From positions 1 to 46,374 of IMG/VR virus record IMGVR_UViG_3300007276_000011: a stretch of 46,374 nt of DNA; one strand, 5' to 3'. The notes under the pieces were generated by a model. That model was not told the origin of the DNA. It saw only the letters and a list, made by a program, of their open reading frames with translations, and ran no database searches. The stretch comes from a virus. Shown here one piece after another: positions 33,542 to 45,953 of the stretch. Position numbers and translations under genes: made by a program. Within the stretch, counting starts at the first letter, position 1. Each line of letters begins with the position of its first letter.

Positions 33542-34042
33542 TTAAGTTACTGGTGTTATCTTGATTGCATCAACGCCATTAAAGCCCGTGGCTGTAGCGC
33601 TAAATGTCATTGAAAATGTAACAGTATCGTTAGTGCCACCGCCTAGGCCAGGGCCTTGCGTGATATTAACGAAGATATTGTATTTCAAGCCGTAACCAGG
33701 CGCTGAAATCTCAAGCCATCCACAAGGCTGACGACCAGCCATTACTTCATCAACAAAATATTGCGTTAGCTCTAATTGATTTGACACTAATGCGGTGTCG
33801 GATTTATCAGCCCAGCCAGAAACTGTAATTTCTGCTGACAGCGTTGTAACTAATGTTGAGTTTACAGCGCCTGATACATCGCTTGTGTTGTCGGTGGTGT
33901 TACCCGTAAAGTCTAGGCTCTTTGTGTTGATTGAACCAAATACTTTAAATGTTGCAGCCGCCAAATCTAAATCTCCGCAGCCTTCCGCGAATTTTACGAT
34001 TAGATTGCGACCTGTCATGTTTCCAACTGAACAATCAGCCAT
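33542..34042 (-). CDS. Major tail tube protein (copy 1)
   Basis: A 166-residue beta-rich tube protein. It is followed by the chaperone and tape measure genes, as expected. CSVGNMTGRNLIVKFAEGCG at the start and NITQGPGLGGGTNDTVTFSM near the end are nearly identical in the second copy at 43055-43612; about three quarters of residues match over the shared length. Copy 2 carries a C-terminal extension, copy 1 ends with ITPVT. The gene has its own promoter (extended -10) and GGAG site. Confidence 0.85.
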   Translation of the reverse strand: MADCSVGNMTGRNLIVKFAEGCGDLDLAAATFKVFGSINTKSLDFTGNTTDNTSDVSGAVNSTLVTTLSAEITVSGWADKSDTALVSNQLELTQYFVDEVMAGRQPCGWLEISAPGYGLKYNIFVNITQGPGLGGGTNDTVTFSMTFSATATGFNGVDAIKITPVT

Positions 34043-34315: not shown

Positions 34316-34348
34316 AAATCTAAATTGATTGGTACAGAATGCACCGGT

Positions 34349-34420
34349 TGTGAGCTATCGGACTTGAACCGATATACAGTAATTAAAAGTTACCAGCTTT
34401 GACAGTTAAGCTAAACTCAC
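34349..34420 (-). tRNA. tRNA-Lys (anticodon TTT)
   Basis: A complete 72-base cloverleaf: acceptor GTGAGTT/AGCTCAC (one G-T pair), D stem GCTT/AAGC, anticodon stem GGTAA/TTACT with loop CTTTTAA (anticodon TTT), a four-base variable loop and T stem ATCGG/CCGAT with loop TTCAAGT. The discriminator is A; the genome then reads ACC, so CCA must be added by the host enzyme. The D loop (AACTGTCA) lacks the second of the usual paired Gs. It would help translate the AAA-rich phage genes. Confidence 0.85.
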
Positions 34421-34453
34421 ACCATTGTATTCTATTTATATCTGTTAAGTGAT

Positions 34454-34932: not shown

Positions 34933-35295
34933 ATGAGAGATTTAACAGAAGAAGAATTGAAATTAGCGCCTGATTGGGCTACGCATTATTTTAAAGATGA
35001 TGACGGAGATATATTGTTTGAGTCCACCAATGGATATCAGTGGGCTGTAGGGTTAAAGCTAAAGAAAAGGGTGGTAGTTAGGGGTTATAGCGTTAAGCTA
35101 TCAAAGCCGATAAAACCATTTGAAATAAGCCGGTATCAATTTTCAGATAAAGACATTAGGTTTTCTAATTTATGCAATTCAAAAATGGAACTTGCTCTTG
35201 ACGACTGCGGAATTGAGCATTACTTTACGCTACATAAAAACGACGCCATAGCAATAGCTAAGACCTTAGGTATAACAGCAAAAGACTTAACCTAG
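34933..35295 (+). CDS. Hypothetical protein, paralogue of 43749-44138
   Basis: A 120-residue protein, alone on the plus strand inside the late region, with its own promoter and AAAGGTAAG before the ATG. Its C-terminal half (KPFEISRYQFSD, then a final AIAKTLGITAKDL) matches the protein at 43749-44138 (KPFDFESYKFSD, AMAKALGMTGENL). Both genes lie next to, and diverge from, a tail tube gene copy. Function unknown. It ends in a 4-base overlap with the convergent tail terminator gene. Confidence 0.7.
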   Translation: MRDLTEEELKLAPDWATHYFKDDDGDILFESTNGYQWAVGLKLKKRVVVRGYSVKLSKPIKPFEISRYQFSDKDIRFSNLCNSKMELALDDCGIEHYFTLHKNDAIAIAKTLGITAKDLT

Positions 35296-40477: not shown

Positions 40478-41017
40478 CTATCTACCTTTCTGAGTCCTTT
40501 CAATCTGCAACTCAATATCATAAATAGATGCTGTACCACCTATTGACGTTATTTTTGGTATGCCGCCATTAGCTAAAAATGTAGCGCCTGCGTAGCCTGG
40601 CATTACAAAGTTAAATGGTTGCTCTGTGTTTGCGCCCTTAATAAACAGTCGACTATCAGGGAATATAATCCCAAATGTGCCGCCGATATCTATGCCAAAG
40701 CTTAATGATGCGTTAGATGCTGAGCTAGTCTTAGCTTTGAATCTATACGTAAACACCATTTTATCTAACTCAGTATCGGGTGTTATTTTACCCGTTACGG
40801 AGTCGTAAAATGAAGTTACACCTGTCGGCAGTTGTGACGTTATAGTTTCGCCTGAATTATTAGGCAATGCCAAAGTCTGCCCTGACTGCACAACAAAAGC
40901 AGATGCTTCCGTATATTGCGTATCAGCATGGCGCGCCCAGCCTGTATTTTCATCTATAATACCTTGCACATCAGCAGCAGTTAATCCGCCAGTGCTTATT
41001 CCTAGTTTAAAGCTCAT
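40478..41017 (-). CDS. Putative virion appendage protein
   Basis: A 179-residue protein, last of the cassette with the second tail tube and SGNH hydrolase. The start (GISTGGLTAADVQGIIDENT) resembles short virion-binding regions of fibre proteins. The rest is beta-rich with many Ser, Thr and Gly (KTSSASNASLSFGIDIGGTF), like a jelly-roll domain. It might sit on the particle surface with the hydrolase. No family is certain. Confidence 0.55.
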   Translation of the reverse strand: MSFKLGISTGGLTAADVQGIIDENTGWARHADTQYTEASAFVVQSGQTLALPNNSGETITSQLPTGVTSFYDSVTGKITPDTELDKMVFTYRFKAKTSSASNASLSFGIDIGGTFGIIFPDSRLFIKGANTEQPFNFVMPGYAGATFLANGGIPKITSIGGTASIYDIELQIERTQKGR

Positions 41018-41044: not shown

Positions 41045-41098
41045 TCAGAGTGAATCACCCTCAACACTGCCTTTTTCGTCTAATCTATACCAAGTCAT
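41045..41098 (-). CDS. Possible 17-residue peptide
   Basis: A short frame starts next to the stop of the 99-residue gene (TAATATG) and encodes MTWYRLDEKGSVEGDSL. It lies in an otherwise empty 80-base gap. Support is weak and rests on the start position only. Confidence 0.25.
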   Translation of the reverse strand: MTWYRLDEKGSVEGDSL

Positions 41099-41099
41099 A

Positions 41100-41399
41100 T
41101 TAAACCTGTTCGATAATTTGCACCGTGATTAATCCATTTCTAACAGGGCTAGACACAAATGCGCCCGAGTCGTTTAAATTATTTGAAGCTTGTTGGTTGT
41201 AAATGATAGGTAATCCGCCAACCAAGTTAGTTGGCGCTTCGGATTTAGCCCATAAATAAATGGGCAGCGAGCCTTTGTTTACAACTAATAATTGATCCCC
41301 AACTGTTACTACTGGGAATCCTGCTTGTGCGTTAAGTGCTGCGTATAAATCTAGCGGTACGCCTTTTGGCACAATTATGTCAGGTCTAGTATCTGCCAT
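41100..41399 (-). CDS. Small putative virion protein
   Basis: A 99-residue protein, beta-rich with hydrophobic strands (FPVVTVGDQLLVVNKGSLPI). It lies between the SGNH hydrolase and the 179-residue protein and has GTGAGGAATT upstream of its ATG. It may be a small adaptor or decoration protein. Function unknown. Confidence 0.6.
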   Translation of the reverse strand: MADTRPDIIVPKGVPLDLYAALNAQAGFPVVTVGDQLLVVNKGSLPIYLWAKSEAPTNLVGGLPIIYNQQASNNLNDSGAFVSSPVRNGLITVQIIEQV

Positions 41400-41451
41400 T
41401 TTAATTCCTCACTTAAAAATTGTGTGCCGCCAAATTAATGGCGGTGTTTTG

Positions 41452-43050
41452 TTAGGCCGTTCTGGTTAAAGATAAACCAGATAACATACCGAAACCTAGC
41501 CCGTCAAGTGATTCTAGTGTTGCGTTTATCTCCCCGTTGCCATCAACTGTAACTGAACCTGTAGCCGTAGGGGCTACGCCACCTGATACTTGTGTTGTGG
41601 TTAATGATATAACAGTGCCATTAGCTGTAACTTTGGACGTTGATGCTGCATCGTTGTACGCTGCAACGATAGACATGTCAAATACAGTACCAGCCGTAAG
41701 ACCTGAAATATTAATATTCATAGTCTCACCAGTGTTGACGTAAGACGCACTCTTCAATAGATAATGATTTTGCAAGGATACAGTTTCATTCCCCGCGTTA
41801 CCACTACCTGATGTCGTTCGTGTATTTATACCAGAAGTCACCATGTAAGATCTATTACCCACAAGTGAACCATCAGATTTTTTAACTGTAGTTTCTCTTA
41901 AATCGGCGAGTGATATTATGTTAATGTTTGAATTTTTAAGGTAGCCCTGCTGTTCAGCAACGTGGGTGTCATAAACCCTAGAGAAGTCAAACAGACACTC
42001 CTCGCCGATCGCTAAACTAATTTCCTCTGGGTAGCTGTACAGCTCATCAACTGATATATCTGAAACATTAGATTCAGACGCTGCAAAACATCTGTTAGCG
42101 AAATATGTACGGTATAACTCTGATGTGTTTACATCTGGATGTATAGAATCGTTATCAGAGCCAAACCAATACCTAAAGTAGTTTCTAGTTTCGGTGAAGA
42201 AATCAAAGAAACAACGTCCATTAGCAAACCAATCCGGTGAGTGTTGCTGGCAAAGAGCATCAACAACCTCTGATTGCCATGCTACTGTCTGGTCGTATTG
42301 AGCTGCACTGCCGTCTATAATATCGAAACCTTGTGAGCCTCTTACGTTAATGTTTCGCCAATCATTATACGGCTGACTTGCAATCGCATAGTCAGCATCT
42401 AAACTAGAGTTTTTAATAGCGTTAGCGAGTGTCGCAGTCCAAGTTTCACATTCAGCTTTTTGCACTGCGTAATCGACGGAATTTACACAAACTTCTTTCC
42501 AATCATTGGTTCGTAATACATCTATGAATAATACCTTTTTACCAGCCAGTAGCGTTTCGTAATCTGAAAGGGTTCGGCTTGATGTTGTTGGCGCAACTTG
42601 ACCTAGGAATTTTTCAGTGAACGTTTTTGTGGTATGCCCTGAAATACCGCTACCGTAAACTTCAATAACAGGGTTAAAGCCAGCTTGTTCAAAAGCCAAA
42701 GCAAGCTTATCTTCCCTCGACTCTGCCGATTGATTTGTAATTGAGTCACCAACAAAGGCAACAGCATCATAATCAAAAGATGGCAAAGCAGGCGCAGACC
42801 CCTCAATAACACTATAGCCGCCAAATGCATTGGCTGTAGACTCAGTACCCGCGCCTGCGTTATTACCATACACCCAAACATTCTGACCGTCAGTGCCAGC
42901 GGTTCCGATATCTAATTCCACAGCTCCGCCAGTCGTAGCATGTACGCCAGACCACAAAAGCGTGTCCTGCTCTTTATTTGTCACAACCGCATTGATACTG
43001 GATAACCCAACTGGTGCGTTTTGCAATGTAAATTTAACTTTGTTAGCCAT
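41452..43050 (-). CDS. SGNH/GDSL hydrolase, virion-associated
   Basis: A 532-residue protein. Block I is AFVGDSITNQS (catalytic Ser103), block II-like YGSGISGH (about 132-139), block III-like LRTNDW (Asn182), and block V NDSIHPD with Asp301 and His304, which completes the SGNH set. Such phage proteins remove acetyl groups from capsule or O-antigen. Residues 1-85 form a separate beta-rich region that may attach it to the virion, and residues about 330-530 form another beta-rich region. It directly follows the second tail tube gene. Confidence 0.85.
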   Translation of the reverse strand: MANKVKFTLQNAPVGLSSINAVVTNKEQDTLLWSGVHATTGGAVELDIGTAGTDGQNVWVYGNNAGAGTESTANAFGGYSVIEGSAPALPSFDYDAVAFVGDSITNQSAESREDKLALAFEQAGFNPVIEVYGSGISGHTTKTFTEKFLGQVAPTTSSRTLSDYETLLAGKKVLFIDVLRTNDWKEVCVNSVDYAVQKAECETWTATLANAIKNSSLDADYAIASQPYNDWRNINVRGSQGFDIIDGSAAQYDQTVAWQSEVVDALCQQHSPDWFANGRCFFDFFTETRNYFRYWFGSDNDSIHPDVNTSELYRTYFANRCFAASESNVSDISVDELYSYPEEISLAIGEECLFDFSRVYDTHVAEQQGYLKNSNINIISLADLRETTVKKSDGSLVGNRSYMVTSGINTRTTSGSGNAGNETVSLQNHYLLKSASYVNTGETMNINISGLTAGTVFDMSIVAAYNDAASTSKVTANGTVISLTTTQVSGGVAPTATGSVTVDGNGEINATLESLDGLGFGMLSGLSLTRTA

Positions 43051-43054
43051 TATA

Positions 43055-43612
43055 TTAACCCATAGTAAATTGTTCTAAGAATGAGAATTGACCCAAATCT
43101 GGCTCAGGCGGATTTGCTGCATCGACAATTTGAATTGCATCAACGCCATTAAATCCTGTCGCTGTTGAGCTGAAAGTCATAGAAAAAGTAACCGTATCAT
43201 TTGTGCCGCCGCCAAGACCAGGGCCTTGAGTAATATTAACGAAAACATAATACTCAATAGCATAGCCAACTGCGTACACATGCAACCAGCCAGATGGCTG
43301 CCTCCCGTTAAGCACCTCATTAATAAAGTATTGAGTAAGCTCGAGCTGATTTGAAACAAGCGCTGTATCTTGCTTATCTGCCCACCCACTTACCGTTAAC
43401 TCTGCTGATAGTGTTGTTACTAGCTGAGACATTACACCCTCAGACAGGTCGCTGTTATTGTCTGTTGTACTGCCGGTAAAATCCAACTGCTTTGTGTTTA
43501 TAGAGCCAAACACCTTAAATGGCGCTGTAGCTAAAACCAAGTCCCCACACCCAGCGGCAAACTCAACAACTAAATTCCTACCTGTCATATTACCCACTGA
43601 GCATTCAGACAT
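43055..43612 (-). CDS. Second tail tube protein (copy 2) with C-terminal extension
   Basis: A 185-residue paralogue of the tail tube protein at 33542-34042. ATG 43612 follows AGGGGG; the N-terminus CSVGNMTGRNLVVEFAAGCG and the stretch NITQGPGLGGGTNDTVTFSM are almost identical. Unlike copy 1 it has about 20 additional residues at the end (PPEPDLGQFSFLEQF). It is placed between capsid and connector genes and directly before the SGNH hydrolase, far from the tail genes. It could be mixed into the tube or anchor the hydrolase. Confidence 0.82.
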   Translation of the reverse strand: MSECSVGNMTGRNLVVEFAAGCGDLVLATAPFKVFGSINTKQLDFTGSTTDNNSDLSEGVMSQLVTTLSAELTVSGWADKQDTALVSNQLELTQYFINEVLNGRQPSGWLHVYAVGYAIEYYVFVNITQGPGLGGGTNDTVTFSMTFSSTATGFNGVDAIQIVDAANPPEPDLGQFSFLEQFTMG

Positions 43613-43668: not shown

Positions 43669-43720
43669 ATTATACGCCATATAAAAACACCTTGCTTTAT
43701 TATAATTAATCAACTACAGT
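43669..43720. promoter_or_regulatory. Divergent promoter region
   Basis: Leftward, TATAAT (43674-43669) lies upstream of tail tube copy 2. Rightward, TTGCTT (43692-43697) and TACAGT (43715-43720) are 17 apart. TATAATTAATC and TTAAATTAATTAG words resemble those at other islands. Confidence 0.5.
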
Positions 43721-43748
43721 TAGGTTAAATTAATTAGAGGGTTTATTT

Positions 43749-44138
43749 ATGGAAGGTTTCAAAGTATTTTTGCGTGGTGAGGACATTGGCGAGCAAGTTG
43801 AAAGCTTGAGTGTGAACTCTGTCAGAGACTTTCGTGGCGGAATTAGCGCGGCTATTAGGGTAAAATACATTAACGGGAGCTTTGAGGCTTATGACTTTGC
43901 TGATGTCGTAGTTACTAGAGATTATGACTTTGCTGATGTCGTAGTTACTAGAGATTATGAAAAGCCTTTTGACTTTGAGTCATACAAGTTCAGCGATGAA
44001 GGATTATTTCGCGCTAGCGTTGAGGGTGATAGGTTGAAAATGCAGACAAGTGAAATTGAGGGTGAATTTTACATATGCGAAGAAGACGTTGCAGCAATGG
44101 CAAAAGCTTTAGGTATGACAGGTGAGAATTTAAAATGA
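43749..44138 (+). CDS. Hypothetical protein with internal duplication, paralogue of 34933-35295
   Basis: A 129-residue protein after an AGAGGG site. It contains the sequence YDFADVVVTRD twice in direct succession, from a 33-base tandem repeat that keeps the frame. The C-terminal part (KPFDFESYKFSD, AMAKALGMTGENL) is related to the plus-strand gene at 34933-35295. Both neighbours are tail tube copies on the other strand. Function unknown. Confidence 0.68.
   Translation: MEGFKVFLRGEDIGEQVESLSVNSVRDFRGGISAAIRVKYINGSFEAYDFADVVVTRDYDFADVVVTRDYEKPFDFESYKFSDEGLFRASVEGDRLKMQTSEIEGEFYICEEDVAAMAKALGMTGENLK
43890..43955 (+). repeat. 33-base tandem repeat inside a gene
   Basis: Two exact 33-base copies (43890-43922 and 43923-43955), beginning TATGACTTTGCTGATG, plus five bases of a third. 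The length is a multiple of three, so the reading frame is kept and eleven residues are doubled. The exactness suggests a recent duplication. Confidence 0.9.
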
Positions 44139-44602: not shown

Positions 44603-44836
44603 TTACTTTTTAGCAGCTAACTGCTTTTTAAGTTCGGCAACTTCTTTCTTTAGCTCGGCGTTTTCTTTCGATAATGCATCACTTTCAGAGCTAGTACCTT
44701 CAACCGCATCGCGTACACGACCAACCAGTGAAGCTGGTAAGTCGCCATCTTTCGATAGCTCAACTTCGATCACTTCGCCGTTTTTGTACTGCTCGCAACT
44801 CTTACCGACGTATAACTTTTTAACTTTAGCCATCAT
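44603..44836 (-). CDS. Small protein with C-terminal coiled coil
   Basis: A 77-residue protein directly after the capsid gene; tandem ATG codons (44836/44833). The first 45 residues form a small beta part (KKLYVGKSCEQYKNGEVIEV). The end is a regular heptad coil (ALSKENAELKKEVAELKKQL). It is probably a virion or head-completion protein expressed with the capsid, but no family is recognised. Confidence 0.68.
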   Translation of the reverse strand: MMAKVKKLYVGKSCEQYKNGEVIEVELSKDGDLPASLVGRVRDAVEGTSSESDALSKENAELKKEVAELKKQLAAKK

Positions 44837-44843
44837 TTACCCC

Positions 44844-45953
44844 TTAAGCTTTAGAGCCAACAGCTAGACCCATTTGCTTCTGGAAGTCTGACTTAAGCTG
44901 TATAGACTGCGCACACATGTTCTTAAATGCAAACTCATCCGTAGTATTAGCACGGAATTGTAAGATTTGAGTAAGCGGCATAGCATCAAGGATTTCAACA
45001 CACTCACTGTCACGCACAAGTGCAATGATTGTATCTACTGGTACGCTGTCACTTGCAACGATACGGTCAACACCTGGCAATTGTAACAACTCTTGCTCAA
45101 CTGTTTTGCGTAAAGCGCCTGTAGCGGTTGGTGTACCCACTGCTAGTGCGTCTTGTTCTGATGCAATGTAGAACCAATCATCCCAGTTCATGTATACAGT
45201 AAAGCCAGACTTAAAGTTATCAGCGTGACAAGCTTTAAGAGTACCAACAACAGCGGCCTTAATTTCTTTTGGCGTAGATTGCTGAATAGTAATGCCGTGC
45301 GTAAGCGTGTTACGGTCTGGGTGCGTTAGCATGCCGTAAACAGTAGAGCCACCAACGTTAATATCTTCAAATCCGTAAAGCGCCATGTTTTCACGCGTCT
45401 CAAGGATATGACGATTCTTATTACGCATTGCATTGTCGCGCATTAAGCCGCCACCGTTGCCACGCATAAGAGTTTGCATTTGACGCCAGCCGTACGAAAC
45501 GTTGTTGTCAATTACTGGGATTGCAGTACCAGCGTAAACGATAGTGTTTTGGTCTGTTTTGGCTTTACCGCGACCATCTAAAGTAACGTTAACATCACTA
45601 GAGTTGTCACTATATTTAGCGTAGTAGTCAACAATCACGCCAATGTCAACCGAACGAGTAACTGCGCTTGCTAAGTCGTCAAAGATACCAAGCATTGAGC
45701 GCTTAATATCGATACCGCCAGCAGCAAACTGAGCAAAAGCATCATGTGGCACGGTTGCAGCATTACCAACGAATGGGTTTGTTTCAACACCAAAACCAGC
45801 ATCGGCATCAACACCAATTCGATCACCTAAACGCTTTTCGTTTTTGTTCCATGCCTGAATGTGATTAAGCATAAGAGCTTGTTGCTCTTTAGTGTAGCCA
45901 ATCGGCTTAATAGTGCTAGAGCCGTTAGCTGTAATAATCTTGTTTGATTTCAT
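44844..45953 (-). CDS. Major capsid protein, DUF2184-like
   Basis: A 369-residue capsid protein. It follows the decoration protein gene, as usual. DAFAQFAAGGIDIKRSMLGI near residue 71, then IPVIDNNVSYGWRQMQTLMR, then the middle SGFTVYMNWDDWFYIASEQD and LQFRANTTDEFAFKNMCAQS near the end match the DUF2184/HK97-fold capsid group. The ribosome binding site TAGGAGC is strong. The upstream protease/scaffold probably trims the N-terminus. Confidence 0.88.
   Translation of the reverse strand: MKSNKIITANGSSTIKPIGYTKEQQALMLNHIQAWNKNEKRLGDRIGVDADAGFGVETNPFVGNAATVPHDAFAQFAAGGIDIKRSMLGIFDDLASAVTRSVDIGVIVDYYAKYSDNSSDVNVTLDGRGKAKTDQNTIVYAGTAIPVIDNNVSYGWRQMQTLMRGNGGGLMRDNAMRNKNRHILETRENMALYGFEDINVGGSTVYGMLTHPDRNTLTHGITIQQSTPKEIKAAVVGTLKACHADNFKSGFTVYMNWDDWFYIASEQDALAVGTPTATGALRKTVEQELLQLPGVDRIVASDSVPVDTIIALVRDSECVEILDAMPLTQILQFRANTTDEFAFKNMCAQSIQLKSDFQKQMGLAVGSKA

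Follow-up and report, generated by a model that had tools for sequence, protein, structure and literature searches.

A paralogous tail tube gene paired with an SGNH-hydrolase-like gene in a marine phage: a proposed tube-domain adaptor for displaying enzymes on the tail

The genome of a marine phage carries, besides its main tail tube gene, a second tube gene (copy 2) that is followed directly by a gene for an SGNH-hydrolase-like protein. Copy 2 probably serves as a tube-domain adaptor: it would assemble together with the main tube protein and dock the hydrolase via a C-terminal peptide; for this whole chain of events, we estimate a probability of roughly 0.64. In the proposed mechanism, the tube domain of copy 2 would have retained the residues for fitting into the phage's own hexameric tail tube and would fill some of its positions, its C-terminal extension would point outwards, as such additions do in this fold, and the peptide at its end would bind to the N-terminal region of the next gene's product, an SGNH-type enzyme. 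The tail would thereby carry enzyme molecules that are made as a separate chain. Extension and cargo would be swapped together between phages, with the tube domain staying matched to the resident tube. The copies of related viruses bear another peptide and another surface protein, which suggests a swappable way to hang enzymes or spikes on the tail.

Results

Two tail tube genes at separate loci

The window (the whole 46,374-nt stretch of record IMGVR_UViG_3300007276_000011) comes from a marine phage with kinship to Pseudoalteromonas siphophages, e.g., H103 and XCL1123, chiefly via its tail genes. The record contains a 123-bp terminal repeat, which indicates a complete genome, so that two tube genes are the full count. 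The main tail tube gene (33542..34042, minus strand) encodes a protein of 166 aa that matches phrog_853 (1.2e-25) and stands in normal tail operon order, ahead of the chaperone and tape measure genes. A tRNA-Lys gene (34346-34421, minus strand) lies just upstream of the main tube gene, and in Klebsiella phages VLCpiS13a and KP591P3 tRNA genes likewise sit just upstream of the tube gene. Copy 2 (43055..43612, minus strand; 185 aa; phrog_853, 2e-23) lies outside the tail operon, behind the capsid genes; a location in the tail operon holds for 33542-34042 only. An independent contig (L001) contains copy 2 and the start of the hydrolase gene with 100% identity to the window.

The slot that copy 2 occupies begins after the gene for the major capsid protein (DUF6260, phrog_771; 44844..45953, minus strand), and its upstream border is the gene for a 77-aa coiled-coil protein that follows the capsid gene (44603..44836, minus strand). 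Ahead of copy 2, we identified a promoter-like site (TTAACC-18-TATAAT; 43699..43728, minus strand), which is a consensus match only, as promoter matches in the scan were not above the shuffled background. A terminator-like hairpin (41424..41447, minus strand; the hairpin is symmetric, and the scan listed its plus-strand version) was found after the hydrolase gene and before a gene for a 99-aa protein. The promoter-like site and the hairpin are consistent with a separate transcription unit for copy 2 and the hydrolase, though they are no proof of one. Two small genes, 34933-35295 (plus strand) and 43749-44138 (plus strand), sit divergently upstream of the main tube gene and of copy 2, respectively, and are distant kin of each other (30% identity over 73 aa, E = 8e-9). 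The small gene at 43749-44138 contains an exact 33-bp tandem duplication (43889-43954, plus strand), which is also present in contig L001.

Copy 2 is a tube paralogue with a C-terminal extension

A BLASTP comparison aligned copy 2 and the main tube protein without gaps over 162 residues, of which 128 (79%) are identical (E = 1e-96). The excess length of copy 2 is located at the C-terminus, where 23 residues follow the alignable domain. The first-pass annotation had described copy 2 as roughly three quarters identical to the tail tube protein, with a C-terminal extension, and its coordinates and frames proved right.

The closest solved structure by sequence is 9OCC_A, both for copy 2 (2e-12) and for the main tube protein (1e-13). 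Although deposited as "putative neck whiskers protein gp24", this structure is demonstrated in the accompanying paper to be that of the Sf11 (Shigella phage) tail tube protein, with 7-161 of its 238 residues modelled and nothing beyond residue 161 (PMC12724387). Public annotations often call members of this tube family, including PDB 9OCC, fibritin, neck whiskers or decoration protein, and these names are misleading. An AlphaFold2 model of copy 2, built from seven sequences, was weak (mean pLDDT 59), with an order of strands and helix as in the tube topology (beta-sandwich, helix, long beta2-beta3 loop); the best PDB fold match of this weak model was again 9OCC (E = 9e-7). DSR2-SPR complexes were also among the fold-search matches of the model, a result that any tube fold would be expected to give. 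Where tube proteins of other phages bear C-terminal additions, these sit on the outer side of the tail (PMC8718954).

Copy 2 is old and constrained

Of the 123 identical residues with degenerate codons, 42 use the same codon in copy 2 and the main tube gene, versus 46.7 expected if the codons were independent; the shared-codon fraction is 52-71% for neighbouring tail genes compared between the window and H103. Saturated synonymous sites in combination with 79% protein identity point to long purifying selection on both tubes and to no decay; on this codon evidence, copy 2 is old and under purifying selection. The first-pass annotation had named a decayed allele as one of the outcomes that would refute its reading, and the codon analysis that tested this led us to reject it. 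A recent duplication is likewise ruled out by synonymous saturation with a conserved protein. The outgroup tube L037 is about equidistant from the two copies (61% and 59-60%), and the frame of copy 2 is intact in the independent contig L001, which further argues against a decayed or recently duplicated, functionless allele; we regard this reading as refuted.

The tube of H103 at the main-tube locus is only 36% identical to that of the window, whereas the neighbouring tail genes are 77-91% identical; the two tubes of the window belong together. Residues 124-162 of the domain are nearly invariant between the two copies (37/39 identical) but agree at only 4-15 of 38 positions in relatives. The two copies also share 19 of 37 codons at residues 121-162, as opposed to 23 of 86 in the rest of the domain (Fisher p = 0.012). 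It is thus possible that the last part of the domain underwent gene conversion between the copies long ago; such a conversion, if real, would also need a long co-residence of both copies.

A second tube gene is rare

The tube family of the window was found in 308 named phage records at 308 places, one per record, and one tube each was present in the 14 checked relatives with a match. These counts bear out the earlier remark that paralogous tubes are rare. We found a second tube copy neither in these 308 records nor in the 240 records that carry a tube of the type found in contig L040. No relative of the tube or the hydrolase was seen among the pattern matches in bacterial genomes. Among the open-licence papers searched, none was found to describe an adaptor encoded by a second tail tube gene; papers mention "two major tail proteins" in phages of clusters DJ/EL.

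The extension and the hydrolase encoded behind it

The C-terminal extension of copy 2 (approximately residues 163-185, VDAANPPEPDLGQFSFLEQFTMG; 43058..43126, minus strand) is absent from the main tube protein. It consists of a linker with PPEP and a short aromatic peptide, which we propose as the docking peptide. Copy 2 carries no folded Ig, FN3 or carbohydrate-binding domain in cis, the extension being just 23 aa long. The hydrolase gene (41452..43050, minus strand; 532 aa) starts directly behind copy 2, with a gap of 4 nt between the copy-2 stop codon and the hydrolase ATG (43051..43054, minus strand), and in a different frame. Copy 2 has a strong Shine-Dalgarno sequence and the hydrolase gene no clear one; the latter together with the 4-nt gap makes translational coupling by re-initiation likely. 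A frameshift fusion of copy 2 and the hydrolase was considered and rejected: the two genes are read in different frames, the frame of the hydrolase stays open for just 8 codons ahead of the ATG, and there is no known slippery site. The description of copy 2 as "fused" into a hydrolase cassette has therefore to be replaced by that of two adjacent open reading frames (ORFs) in different frames.

The 532-aa protein comprises an N-terminal beta-rich region (residues ~1-90), a hydrolase region (~95-325) and a C-terminal beta-rich region, all with approximate borders. The four SGNH blocks (Ser, Gly, Asn, Asp/His) occur in order, with the motif residues GDS101, GSG133, TND181 and DSIHP301; block III reads TND, not GxND. 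The match to Pfam Lipase_GDSL_2 (PF13472) is below threshold (16.0 bits vs. a cut-off of 32.9), and a single-sequence structure model (pLDDT 36) was unusable. On the strength of its motifs, the protein is probably an SGNH-type enzyme, an esterase or deacetylase. The first-pass annotation was correct in placing an SGNH hydrolase gene directly behind copy 2; its label "deacetylase" went further than the motifs, which are SGNH-like only.

Our searches returned no close relative of the hydrolase; a distant match was ORF229 of Vibrio phage BONAISHI. A distantly related protein of 448 aa (L057:6722-8068, plus strand) takes up the equivalent place after the capsid gene with no tube adaptor next to it, so the slot can hold such enzymes without one. 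This L057 protein has no counterpart of the first 90 residues of the window hydrolase (42780..43050, minus strand), the region that we propose as the binder of the copy-2 peptide, and its absence where the adaptor is also absent fits a docking role for it. The 448-aa protein has relatives at 36-40% identity in large Vibrio phages. Searches of phages with the N-terminal region of the window hydrolase gave chance-level matches only, and a second pair like the window's own peptide and hydrolase N-terminal region was not found in phages.

A cassette of its own for the 99-aa and 179-aa proteins

Behind the hairpin lie genes for a 99-aa protein (phrog_4770; 41100..41399, minus strand), which starts a separate cassette that in relatives comes after the capsid genes, and for a fibre-like 179-aa protein (phrog_8270; 40478..41017, minus strand), the second gene of that cassette. 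The first-pass annotation had counted these two beta-rich proteins as part of the tube and hydrolase system. This assignment was rejected, since relatives carry a cassette of the 99-aa and 179-aa type without either the tube copy or the hydrolase, and the terminator-like hairpin stands between. In L013-L019, the 99-aa MADTRPD family (phrog_4770) follows the capsid gene and is itself followed by ever-changing fibre-like proteins of 400 to 1119 aa, and in phage C7 it is fused to a fibre-like protein; the 99-aa family and its variable fibre-like partner are likely a second base-and-fibre cassette. Right behind the 99-aa gene of the window, a remnant ORF (MTWYRLDEKGSVEGDSL; 41045-41098, minus strand) resembles the start (MAWYKLDEEGNIEG...) of a 209-aa protein that H103 encodes behind the same gene, i.e., a truncated fibre-type gene.

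Related viruses carry like cassettes with other peptides and cargo

The first-pass annotation had proposed a search for the same pair in other phages. Two further cassettes of the same kind with another peptide and cargo were found, one in L039/L040 and one in L056. L039 and L040 were found by a search with the capsid protein and L056 by one with the L040 tube; all are short contigs. The capsid protein of L039/L040 is 85% identical to that of the window. In their slot, after the capsid gene and a gene for a small protein, is a gene for a 198-aa tube-domain protein that ends in TPEPPEPPEPTNNNGFFFTSDPTFNGEFL, and the cargo gene coupled to or overlapping with it encodes more than 500 aa, beta-helical by eye, with no family match. 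In L056, the gene order is capsid gene, small gene, three opposite-strand genes, tube-domain gene, spike gene and 99-aa-family gene. The tube-domain protein of L056 (202 aa) ends in TPAPSGDWYNTNTGLVDCSYGLLECNSEQILCL, and the gene that overlaps with it belongs to the tail spike family phrog_27786 (1e-9). Both adaptors thus consist of a tube domain, a Pro-containing linker and a short peptide and are followed by a coupled surface protein, with peptides that differ from that of the window.

The tube domains of L040 and L056 are of the H40/1 subtype: they share 75-80% identity with the main tubes of H40/1, L047 and L048 and ~30% with those of the window. The main tubes that we compared have no extension. 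The capsid protein of L056 is 74% identical to that of H40/1, which indicates that the tube type of an adaptor agrees with that of the phage group to which it belongs; the contigs are too short to include the main tubes of these viruses themselves. In a tree, the tube-domain adaptors need at least two origins.

A comparison of L040 with L056 revealed a sharp border. Their tube domains share 98% identity (26 differences over 513 nt, with 3 amino-acid changes; dN/dS 0.03), and the similarity extends 59 bp upstream of the tube domain; past the tube domain, the next 200 nt are only 27% identical, and the downstream proteins are unrelated. The location of this border at the end of the tube domain indicates that extension and cargo were replaced together. 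A block exchange of this sort would be expected if each peptide fitted no cargo but its own, although this is a single event; known so far are three cassettes and one block exchange. The first-pass annotation had suggested that the extended copy is built into the tail and carries the hydrolase there. Apart from the word "fused", this remains the best-supported reading, to which the like cassettes, the block exchange, the extra N-terminus of the hydrolase and the peptide/anchor pair described below all point. As a scheme for some marine siphophages, we favour by a narrow measure a modular display in which the tail incorporates a tube paralogue that matches the resident tube and bears a cargo-specific peptide, the cognate enzyme or spike docks in trans, and peptide and cargo are swapped together.

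Shewanella phages repeat the peptide/anchor pair of L056

At its N-terminus, the L056 cargo resembles spikes of Shewanella phages 1/4 and 1/40, with 79% identity over the first 28 residues; the remainder of these spikes differs from it. In phage 1/40, one such spike gene is immediately preceded by that of S140_132, a protein of 59 aa with EPPANLNWFTSLGIIRCNFIVPCDEEVIPCLA at its end. A search of Shewanella phages with the 33-aa extension of L056 returned nothing; the peptide was found by reading the upstream gene and scoring ORF ends. Among 245 ORF ends from two Shewanella loci, the end of S140_132 had the top score against the L056 extension (51, next 31). In a shuffle control, 1 in 20,000 scored as high; this value is partly post hoc, as the peptide was spotted by eye before scoring, and the 245 ORF ends are the fairer control. 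In phage 1/4, this peptide gene is again found ahead of an anchor, one that has diverged further. For two more spikes with the anchor, no peptide gene lies within 1.5 kb, and these two may share the one base protein. In both loci, L059 (7781-7960, plus strand; Shewanella phage 1/40) and L063 (phage 1/4), the 59-aa protein encoded directly before the spike gene has a Cys-rich end, and it looks like a general spike-docking base.

Weighing alternative explanations

Among the points against the adaptor reading are the location of the cassette among head genes and the occurrence of cargo of the L057 type without an adaptor. Both would suit an arrangement in which the tube domain is a scaffold elsewhere and adaptor and cargo decorate the head or neck, as the cassette stands directly behind the capsid genes among head-fibre-like cassettes and the distant hydrolase of L057 fills the same slot with no tube adaptor. 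However, no tube protein is known to bind capsids, and the tube subtype tracks the tail tube of the group rather than the capsid, in that L040 combines a capsid of the window type with an H40/1-type tube domain; decoration of the head or neck is therefore very improbable. On the tail, copy 2 might be confined to a single full or partial ring at a set position, adjacent to the terminator or to the distal tail protein, and hold few enzyme copies there rather than being spread over the shaft. The evidence for co-assembly fits such a ring equally well, and tube-fold proteins specialised for tube ends exist in contractile systems. The sequence is silent on position and copy number, so that the insertion "at intervals" suggested in the first-pass annotation goes beyond it. 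Yet specialised tube-end proteins are usually far more diverged, and the 79% identity and the nearly invariant residues 124-162 suggest an ordinary tube environment for copy 2, so we consider a dedicated ring unlikely.

The remaining readings do without display. Given that its tube domain is complete and conserved, and that an old gene conversion is possible, copy 2 could be an alternative or spare whole-tube protein, e.g., a source for recombination, with the hydrolase a chance neighbour. This is improbable in light of the two further cassettes in the same slot, which also have extensions and coupled surface-type cargo, of the joint exchange of extension and cargo, and of the lack of an extension in the compared main tubes. 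Tube proteins are also known triggers of defence, as in the sensing of the phage SPR tube protein by DSR2, whose complexes appeared in our fold search, and copy 2 might thus be a non-virion decoy or modulator that saturates tube-sensing defences; this would leave the cargo-matched extension and the coupled enzyme and spike genes unexplained, and its probability is slight. Comparative sequence shows homology, purifying selection, recurrence, block exchange and one recurring peptide/anchor pair; that copy 2 is present in virions as a tube-domain adaptor and docks an active enzyme there, and with it the place and number on the tail, is inferred.

Discussion

Decoration of the tail shaft is already known in the form of cis domains on a single tube protein, sometimes on a fraction of the subunits via frameshifting. 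If the adaptor reading is true, a second tube gene that serves as a socket for separate enzymes would split tail building from decoration. A whole surface activity could then be exchanged in one recombination step, and the tail shaft re-armed with the tail operon untouched. The system would also provide a naturally occurring peptide/anchor pair for tube-based display.

Several known systems share parts of this arrangement. Tail fibres and tailspikes with SGNH hydrolases that deacetylate host polysaccharide are a known class, to which the cargo of copy 2 likely belongs as an enzyme; the known ones, however, are fibre or spike proteins, and we have seen none whose gene comes right after that of a tube paralogue. 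Extracellular contractile injection systems have tube paralogues with specialised jobs, as do type VI secretion systems with their Hcp paralogues, and some of these carry effectors; these systems differ in being contractile and in holding their cargo in the lumen or baseplate, not on a docking peptide outside a siphophage tail. Sf11 gp24 and the phrog_853 and phrog_1407 tubes have a homologous domain, and members may bear a C-terminal domain outside the tube, but each genome has a single tube gene, in the tail operon, and the spikes of Sf11 are mounted on the distal tail protein rather than the tube. The "hairy" tail of phage CBB resembles the proposed structure in its appendages along the shaft, but CBB is a contractile jumbo phage, and the responsible genes are unknown (PMC5259590).

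The closest parallels are tube proteins with additions. TpeX of lactococcal 936 phages decorates the shaft through a tube protein and has carbohydrate-directed cargo (PMC6669499). It differs from the present case in that it is a frameshift product with a carbohydrate-binding module in cis, and there is neither a second tube gene nor a separate enzyme chain. In SPP1, the tube protein gp17.1 and its frameshift-extended form gp17.1* are present in the tail at 3:1, so that, as proposed here, a single phage uses a shorter and a longer version of its tube subunit, and the longer one bears extra C-terminal sequence that faces outwards (PMC8718954). The long form of SPP1 arises from the same gene by frameshifting and carries a folded FN3 domain in cis, whereas the marine phage has an old, diverged second gene, a short linker-peptide and a separately encoded enzyme.
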